Shown: one piece after another, positions 19,706-21,335 of the stretch | Layout of the letters: every line of letters begins with the position of its first letter | How positions within the stretch are numbered: position 1 is the stretch's first letter | NCBI GenBank assembly: GCA_013997645.1 | Contig: PNKB01000009.1 | Coordinates: 1-57,209, forward strand | DNA length: 57,209 bases | Source of the DNA: Cyanobacteria bacterium PR.3.49 | Lineage (GTDB): Bacteria > Cyanobacteriota > Vampirovibrionia > Obscuribacterales > Obscuribacteraceae | Direction: 5' to 3' | Notes under the pieces: generated by a model | What the model was told of the DNA's origin: nothing | Seen by the model: the letters and a program-made list of their open reading frames with translations, nothing else | The model's database searches: none | Translations under genes and position numbers: made by a program

Positions 19706-21016
19706 CTAAGGCGTCATGCGGTTGATGTCGCGCGGGAAAAGCGCAGCCAATTTAACCGAGGGCAATCCCAGCAATTGTTTGGCAATGCGCTCCAACCCGA
19801 TGGCGAATCCACCGTGAGGCGGCATGCCATATTGAAAGCATTGCAAGTAGTCTTTAAATGCTTCCGGGTCCAGACCCCGGCCTTTTATGGCCGCAACCAG
19901 CTCTTCATGCCTATGTATGCGCTGACCGCCGGTAGTGATTTCCAGTCCGCGGAAAAGCAAGTCGAAACTGCGGCTGGACATTTCCCCTTCCGCCGGTAGC
20001 GGCATGGCATAAAAAGGCCTGACGCTGAGCGGGTATCCGGTGATGAATACCAGATCGGTGTTTTCAGTTTTGAGAAAATGCTCGCAGATTATTTTCTCGC
20101 CTTCCGGGTCGAGGTCGGTTTTCTCTGCGCTGCCTTTCTTTTGATAGCTGTTGATTATGTCCACTGCTTCGGAAAGAGTAACGGCAGGAATAACCGCTAC
20201 TTCAGGCACTTTCGCGCCGAAGAGGCTGAGTTCTTCCGGGCAAGATTGCGAGACTTTCTCGAACATGTGGCGAACCAATTTGTTGAGCAAGTCGGTCAGG
20301 TCGCGTTCGCTTTCGATGAAGCCCATCTCCACGTCCATGCTGATGTATTCGTTGAGATGGCGTGTGGTGTCGTGCTCTTCGGCGCGATAAACGGGAGCGA
20401 CTTCGAAAACTCGCTCGAGCGCACCGACCATGATTTGCTTGTAGAACTGCGGGCTTTGCGCGAGAAACGCCTCTCGCCCGAAATAATTCAGCTTGAAAAG
20501 CTGCGCGCCGCCTTCGGTTCCGGTGGCGACGATCTTGGGCGAATGGATTTCGGTGAATTGCCGCTCTCTCAAAAACTCGCGGAAAGCTTCGCAGAAGACT
20601 GCCTCGATTTTGAAAATGGCGCGAACTTTAGGGCTGCGCAAAGTGAGCGGACGGTAGTCGAGCATAGTTGAAAGAGCCAGTCCATCAACTTTGCTCTGTT
20701 TGCCAATCTCGACAGGAAGCGATGGTGCAGGAGTCGAAAGCAGGGTCAGCTCTTTCAAATGAATTTCAAATCCCTGTCCATTCGGCTTAGCTACTACAAC
20801 ACCTTCGGCACTCACCGGTGTTTCGCAAGTGGCGAGCCGTACAACCGACAGCACTTCCGCCTCGTCCGCGACCAGCTGCACTGCACCACTCATGTCTCTG
20901 ATGACGACAAAGGCCAAATTGCCCATGTCGCGAAGAGATTGAATATGCCCATGTATGCGCACGGCTGAGCCTGTGTGCTGTGACAGCTGGGTTGAACTTA
21001 TCTCGACTGTGGTCAT
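19706..21016 (-). CDS. aspS: Aspartyl-tRNA synthetase, archaeal type (probably non-discriminating)
   Basis: Class II synthetase of 436 residues, the compact archaeal/AspRS2 form rather than the roughly 590-residue bacterial form with a GAD insertion. The N-terminal OB fold (VRIHGHIQSLRDMGNLAFVV) binds the anticodon. Motif 2 includes VYRAEEHDTTRHLNEY; motif 3 is GGFAIGLERIAKQLLG. Compact bacterial AspRS2 enzymes usually charge both tRNA-Asp and tRNA-Asn, feeding GatCAB amidation. The family's OB-fold position that is usually Trp (AGWVHE) is His here. AGGAG lies nine bases before the ATG. The 5' UTR holds an intrinsic terminator preceded by an Asn/Asp-rich reading frame, so transcription attenuation is likely. 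Confidence 0.93.
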   Translation of the reverse strand: MTTVEISSTQLSQHTGSAVRIHGHIQSLRDMGNLAFVVIRDMSGAVQLVADEAEVLSVVRLATCETPVSAEGVVVAKPNGQGFEIHLKELTLLSTPAPSLPVEIGKQSKVDGLALSTMLDYRPLTLRSPKVRAIFKIEAVFCEAFREFLRERQFTEIHSPKIVATGTEGGAQLFKLNYFGREAFLAQSPQFYKQIMVGALERVFEVAPVYRAEEHDTTRHLNEYISMDVEMGFIESERDLTDLLNKLVRHMFEKVSQSCPEELSLFGAKVPEVAVIPAVTLSEAVDIINSYQKKGSAEKTDLDPEGEKIICEHFLKTENTDLVFITGYPLSVRPFYAMPLPAEGEMSSRSFDLLFRGLEITTGGQRIHRHEELVAAIKGRGLDPEAFKDYLQCFQYGMPPHGGFAIGLERIAKQLLGLPSVKLAALFPRDINRMTP

Positions 21017-21043: not shown

Positions 21044-21078
21044 AAAAGAAAAACCGCAAGAACCTTGATTCTTGCGGT
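21044..21078 (-). terminator. Intrinsic terminator in the aspS leader (attenuator)
   Basis: On the minus strand ACCGCAAGAA (21078-21069), a 6-base loop and TTCTTGCGGT (21062-21053) form a perfect 10-bp stem followed by TTTTTCTTTT. It ends only 27 bases before the aspS start codon, so it must be bypassed for aspS expression. The 3' arm is an exact repeat of 21140-21131 upstream, giving a competing pairing for the 5' arm. Confidence 0.75.
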
Positions 21079-21104
21079 CGTAAAGCTTGTGGGTCGTATC
21101 CGTC

Positions 21105-21248
21105 TTATTTGTCGGTGCGCCGCCTTACTAACCGCAAGAAGCGATTATTATCGTCGTTATTATTGTTATTAGCGGCAGATGCGGCAATTGCCGGCCCGTT
21201 GAGGGGCTGGCTGCAAGGTTTTTTCAGGCTGGTCGGACGAGCCGGCAT
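21105..21248 (-). CDS. Candidate 47-residue leader peptide of aspS with an Asn/Asp run
   Basis: ATG at 21248, with AGGTG seven bases upstream, opens a frame of 47 codons ending in TAA at 21105. Codons 27-35 (21170-21144) are five Asn, two Asp and two Asn in succession. The C-terminus is basic (FLRLVRRRTDK). The peptide resembles no functional protein; instead its position matches an attenuation leader. It lies after a promoter-like element and before a terminator in front of the enzyme that charges tRNA-Asp and probably tRNA-Asn. Immediately after the run, 21140-21131 is complementary to the terminator's 5' arm. Alternatively it is a chance open frame or an independent microprotein. Confidence 0.5.
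   Translation of the reverse strand: MPARPTSLKKPCSQPLNGPAIAASAANNNNNDDNNRFLRLVRRRTDK
21131..21140 (-). promoter_or_regulatory. Predicted antiterminator strand in the aspS leader
   Basis: TTCTTGCGGT on the minus strand is identical to the terminator 3' arm and fully complementary to its 5' arm at 21078-21069. Pairing of these two would prevent terminator formation. It starts one codon after the Asn/Asp run. Confidence 0.5.
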
Positions 21249-21306
21249 CTAACAACACCTATAAGAAGATCAAAAAGAGCACTTCAAAGCGCCCTCTCAA
21301 TCCAGA

Positions 21307-21335
21307 ATGCTACCGCCGCATCTGTCATGCGTCAA
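21307..21335 (-). promoter_or_regulatory. Sigma-70 promoter for the aspS leader
   Basis: On the minus strand: TTGACG, a 17-base spacer, then TAGCAT. The -35 matches consensus at five of six positions and the -10 at four. It lies in the 118 bases between the lipase stop and the leader reading frame and predicts a leader of about 285 bases before aspS. Confidence 0.5.

Follow-up and report, generated by a model that had tools for sequence, protein, structure and literature searches.

The window, by which we mean the whole stretch of 57,209 nucleotides that was analyzed, carries a promoter, a short open reading frame (ORF) and an intrinsic terminator upstream of a gene for an aspartyl-tRNA synthetase (AspRS). 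The features of this leader and of the gene behind it are as follows.

21307..21335, minus strand: promoter TTGACG-N17-TAGCAT, 9/12 match
21105..21248, minus strand: leader peptide ORF, 47 codons plus stop, translating as MPARPTSLKKPCSQPLNGPAIAASAANNNNNDDNNRFLRLVRRRTDK
21144..21170, minus strand: candidate sensor run Asn5-Asp2-Asn2, AAT AAC AAT AAT AAC GAC GAT AAT AAT
21122..21140, minus strand: predicted antiterminator 5' strand TTCTTGCGGTTAGTAAGGC, based on a duplex test and on covariation with the terminator in relatives
21140-21131, minus strand: TTCTTGCGGT, the segment after the codon run, within the antiterminator 5' strand
21069..21086, minus strand: predicted antiterminator 3' strand GCTTTACGACCGCAAGAA, containing the terminator 5' arm
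21052..21079, minus strand: intrinsic terminator hairpin, 12 bp with a loop of 4, then TTTCTTTT
19706..21016, minus strand: aspS2, archaeal-type aspartate--tRNA(Asn) ligase, 436 aa (NF003483 and TIGR00458 profiles)

A sequence-only reading of this DNA had described the promoter, the 47-codon frame with its nine consecutive Asn/Asp codons, and a terminator 27 bases before the start codon. All three are indeed present, with the hairpin read here as 21079-21052 and the 27 nt counted to the ATG at 21016. The same reading had called the downstream gene aspS, which has to be corrected, as it is not the standard one: its product scores 540.6 bits against NF003483 (cut-off 353) and 406.5 bits against TIGR00458 (cut-off 368.4), and by these profile matches it is a member of the archaeal-type aspartate--tRNA(Asn) ligase family. 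It is a second AspRS (AspRS2), and its nearest solved structure is that of Thermus AspRS-2, a non-discriminating enzyme of the archaeal type (1n9w).

The codon run reaches 9 Asn or Asp residues (N/D) in 10 codons, against at most 6 in other 300-nt segments on either strand of the 57 kb and at most 4 in dinucleotide shuffles of the leader (n = 100). The Shine-Dalgarno sequence of the leader ORF is modest (AGGTG). Just after the run lies the segment for which a 10-base complementarity to the terminator 5' arm had been reported; the complementarity holds, but its length was underestimated, as the antiterminator duplex extends over 18 bp (21140-21122 with 21086-21069) because GTAAGGC pairs with GCTTTAC as well. 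This duplex is stronger than that of 200/200 shuffles (z = -7.9), and the fold of the antiterminator strand with the terminator 5' arm has an energy of -28.9 kcal/mol, with -16.5 kcal/mol for the terminator. Equilibrium folds around a possible protector (1:2) hairpin suggested competing pairs.

We then considered the upstream regions of aspS2 in the family to which the window belongs, Candidatus Obscuribacterales, where AspRS2 is found in 44 of 50 genomes. Among 43 readable upstream regions (one further locus stops at a contig edge), 42, from 20 genera, contain an N/D run within an ORF, followed by a terminator. In other words, the comparison with relatives that the sequence-only reading had proposed as a check bears it out: the relatives keep the codon run, the terminator and the complementary segment, with compensatory changes. 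A promoter of the type TTGAC(N)-N17/18-TAnnAT stands before the leader in nearly all relatives, so that in nearly every locus it precedes the terminator rather than following it, the latter being the arrangement that had been named as incompatible with attenuation. The stop codon of the leader ORF is kept in all 42 loci. The only exception among the 43 is a locus (L128, genome G031) that has no codon run and whose AspRS is just 43% identical. Its upstream region contains a hairpin with TGGCACCGCC that recalls a T-box, for which Rfam gave no match.

The composition of the runs bears on two explanations in which the codons are not read as a sensor. In the first, the A/T-rich run serves only as an unstructured spacer, with the terminator governed by a codon-independent riboswitch or by a protein. 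Asn and Asp codons are A-rich, and a terminator with an antiterminator would by themselves suit a riboswitch. However, an A-rich spacer would give many codons ending in A or G, and few were seen: the 41 family runs contain 211 Asn, 105 Asp, 2 Lys and 0 Glu codons, i.e., 316 RAY against 2 RAR codons, all in one frame, which argues for selection on the amino acids. Asp moreover substitutes freely for Asn (DDDN in L016, NDDDD in L030), so that the class of amino acid is kept while the base composition is not, and family leaders score 5-10 N/D per 10 codons, where shuffles average about 3. An Rfam search of the window matched no family, T-box included, and a known RNA family or riboswitch was rejected on that ground; nor is there an aptamer-like conserved block, the N-terminal part of the leader being hypervariable. 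We consider this explanation very improbable. In the second, the ORF is kept for its product, a small Asn/Asp-rich protein with a function of its own such as metal binding, and the terminator is a housekeeping element. The preservation of ORF and stop codon in 42/42 loci would agree with this, but the peptide is little conserved outside the run and its length varies widely, with six to about thirty codons before the run, and a function of the peptide leaves the covariation between antiterminator and terminator, described below, unexplained. We hold the small-protein explanation to be less probable still, close to negligible.

Covariation was assessed in nine aligned columns of the two terminator arms (T5 and T3) and the antiterminator strand (A) of 31 distinct loci, two of which (L020 and L030) were parsed by hand. 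As a null, whole arms were permuted 1000 times among loci, which leaves the segments whole and the tree unmodelled. For T5 with T3, 95% of the cells were paired and 48 were compensatory (permutation maxima 84% and 29). Pairing of A with T5 was found in 83%, with 31 compensatory cells, where the permutations gave means of 73% and 13 and maxima of 78% and 23. Both pairings are still kept where the sequences have wholly changed, as in L028 (CCACCAGC with GCTGGTGG) and L030. Judged from these alignments, the antiterminator is mutually exclusive with the terminator, a relationship backed by the covariation.

The spacing of these elements fits the coverage of a translating ribosome, as modelled here. 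The bacterial ribosome covers about 16 nt ahead of its P site. From the start of the run to the anchor of the antiterminator pairing there are 30-51 nt (median 38), and from the anchor to the stop codon 19 nt in 16/42 loci. In the window, a ribosome at run codons 1-6, which are five Asn codons and then one Asp codon, leaves 21140-21131 free, and one at codons 7-9 starts to cover it; across the family, run codons 1-5 are mostly Asn. A stall would hence free the antiterminator strand and a ribosome at the stop codon would mask it. Since a stall on the early, mostly Asn, codons is what would free the strand, the leader probably responds chiefly to low Asn-tRNA and secondarily to low Asp-tRNA. This ranking, which rests on the geometry and on counts per codon position, refines the proposal that low charged tRNA-Asn or tRNA-Asp switches the gene on.

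Folding of the nascent RNA separated the two states. With a ribosome on the run, the antiterminator formed first in 39/40 loci, before the terminator 3' arm exists, and with a ribosome at the stop codon the terminator formed in 40/40. When all RNA was present and the ribosome stalled, equilibrium folding still preferred the terminator in 33/40 loci; the choice of the switch must therefore be kinetic and fall during transcription. Ribosome-masked equilibrium folds of the whole leader, unlike nascent folding, separated stalled and free states poorly.

The element in the window has the defining sequence features of a ribosome-mediated attenuator, and aspS2 is very probably controlled by one that acts on transcription. 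The case rests on the anatomy of the leader and its conservation, on selection at the codon level, and on covariation, geometry and the logic of folding; from these we infer ribosome stalling and antitermination in the cell. The attenuator reading first proposed was largely right, with gene identity and antiterminator length in need of correction. Transcription would begin at the 21335-21307 promoter, and a ribosome would translate the leader. With plentiful Asn-tRNA (and Asp-tRNA), it would pass the N/D codons and reach the stop codon, which is located just 3' of the antiterminator strand; there it would sweep or mask that strand, so that the terminator forms and transcription stops before aspS2. 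With charged tRNA-Asn or tRNA-Asp scarce, it would wait at the first N/D codons, leaving the antiterminator strand, which lies some 30 nt downstream, free to pair with the terminator 5' arm while the 3' arm has yet to be transcribed, so that RNA polymerase would continue into aspS2.

AspRS2 would supply Asp-tRNA-Asp and, if it is non-discriminating and charges tRNA-Asn as its family name suggests, also Asp-tRNA-Asn for amidation by GatCAB; such a dual output, if real, would account for a leader that reads both codons. The relatives have, besides AspRS2, a full bacterial-type AspRS (about 620 aa) and AsnRS. Among the genomes tested for each, asnB was found in 26/27, GlnRS in 13/17, GatA in 13/15 and GatB in 21/27; in the six genomes with no detected gatB (G000, G003, G006, G008, G012 and G020), gatA was above cut-off. 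In the window's own assembly GatA is present and GatB was not found. Deinococcus and Thermus also combine GatCAB, GlnRS, AsnRS and a second archaeal-type AspRS in one set, in which AspRS2 makes Asp-tRNA-Asn and so feeds tRNA-dependent asparagine formation (PMC4206432; PMC6523644). The gene set of Obscuribacterales resembles theirs, with GatCAB beside GlnRS and AsnRS, plus the archaeal-type AspRS2.

Given the AsnRS of these genomes and the asnB in nearly all of those tested, the need for an AspRS2 route to Asn-tRNA is not obvious. AspRS2 might instead serve as a back-up whose expression is induced if a natural product, for example, inhibits the main AspRS or AsnRS, a proposal that concerns the physiological role and not the mechanism and is compatible with the attenuator. 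The presence of bacterial-type AspRS, AsnRS and asnB in the relatives speaks for it, as does residue 26 of AspRS2: Thermus AspRS-2 has His at this position and Thermococcus AspRS has Trp, the window's genus has Gln, and other members of the family carry His, Gln, Tyr, Leu or Glu. Against it stand the mostly Asn early codons of the run and GatA beside GlnRS in most genomes tested, as in Deinococcus and Thermus (PMC4206432). On balance we find the back-up role rather unlikely.

The leader appears to be specific to aspS2. The genes checked for AsnRS and bacterial AspRS (L129-L134) have no comparable run in front of them, nor do the sampled gatA, gatB and asnB genes (L197-L211), where scores were 3-6 in longer segments that include neighboring coding sequence. 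A wider Asn/Asp regulon was rejected because runs are absent before all of these genes. A search of the 50 family genomes with the pattern TTGCGG/CCGCAA/TTGCGG returned mostly aspS2, and the remaining matches look like chance.

Classical attenuators are known at synthetase genes, namely pheST in gamma-proteobacteria and trpS and leuS in Streptomyces (PMC1262725), and cysS of Rhodobacterales has the uORFC-8-2 motif attenuator (PMC8632094). Like these, the aspS2 leader places a peptide of cognate codons and an exclusive antiterminator/terminator pair before a synthetase gene; unlike them, it serves an AspRS, mixes two amino acids in one run, and belongs to an archaeal-type second copy in Obscuribacterales. 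It shares with the trp and his attenuators of E. coli the stall on a codon run and the 2:3 versus 3:4 pairing logic, whereas those control a biosynthetic operon and this element a synthetase. The ND-AspRS/gatCAB genes of Clostridium acetobutylicum are, as far as the citing account relates, under T-box control (Saad et al. 2012, 2013, cited in PMC4206432). By that account, charging of tRNA-Asn would be sensed there too for tRNA-dependent Asn formation, with the T-box binding the tRNA directly, whereas the window, which has no T-box, would read charging via the ribosome. In the openly licensed literature we found no leader-peptide attenuator for an AspRS or one that reads two amino acids, which does not prove that none has been described. 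Classical attenuation would thereby be extended to aspartyl-tRNA synthetase and to Obscuribacterales, for which we know of no cultured model. The early Asn codons would be a codon-level clue to the role of a second AspRS, pointing to asparaginyl-tRNA supply, and the two-codon mix a rare case of a sensor that seems to reflect which substrates its enzyme uses.

Synthetase genes of Firmicutes use T-boxes, and none was reported with classical attenuation (PMC1262725). A scan of other AspRS2 genes revealed D/N runs in Paenibacillus, Cytobacillus and Ktedonobacter. Naming each group after the named record at its center, a short D/N-run ORF precedes aspS2 in 7/7 loci of Paenibacillaceae (L160-L166), 12/12 of Bacillaceae (L167-L178) and 13/18 of Ktedonobacteraceae (L179-L196). 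A T-box (Rfam RF00230) lies upstream of aspS2 in Bacillaceae and Paenibacillaceae, and in Ktedonobacteraceae there is a T-box-like motif, with one sub-threshold Rfam match of 52.9 bits. With slightly less than even confidence, we propose that a two-amino-acid leader matched to the dual specificity of AspRS2 occurs in at least three phyla, as an attenuator alone or behind a T-box: a stand-alone transcription attenuator in Obscuribacterales, and in Bacillaceae, Paenibacillaceae and Ktedonobacteraceae a second sensor that follows the T-box and acts on translation. Should the D/N-run ORFs of these three families be functional too, two different tRNA-charging sensors would stand in series before one gene.

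In Paenibacillaceae, the conserved ORF MDDGDDDDDDDNNN is located between T-box and aspS2, about 85-90 nt before the ATG, has a strong Shine-Dalgarno sequence, and extends past the aspS2 start out of frame. This arrangement weakly suggests that a ribosome moving without hindrance might hide the aspS2 start, which a stall would expose; the stalled ribosome would then uncover the aspS2 ribosome-binding site, in a hybrid of tRNA-sensing and ribosome-stall switches. Bacillaceae ORFs include MDDDDDDDNNN and MDDDDDNDMN, and in three loci of this group (L173, L176 and L178) the run shares the reading frame of aspS2 and forms an alternative N-terminal extension, so that the start-covering reading does not fit all loci. 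The tRNA genes found by aspS2 in Ktedonobacteraceae proved irrelevant, being tRNA-Ala and downstream. The ORFs of this group, such as MDNDGDDNDREE, follow the T-box-like leader in the 13 of 18 loci, and are themselves followed, close to the ribosome-binding site of aspS2, by GGAAGGCACC/GGTGTCCTTCC and GGCAGGCTTGCC/GGCAAGCCTGCC repeats, which could form alternative hairpins.
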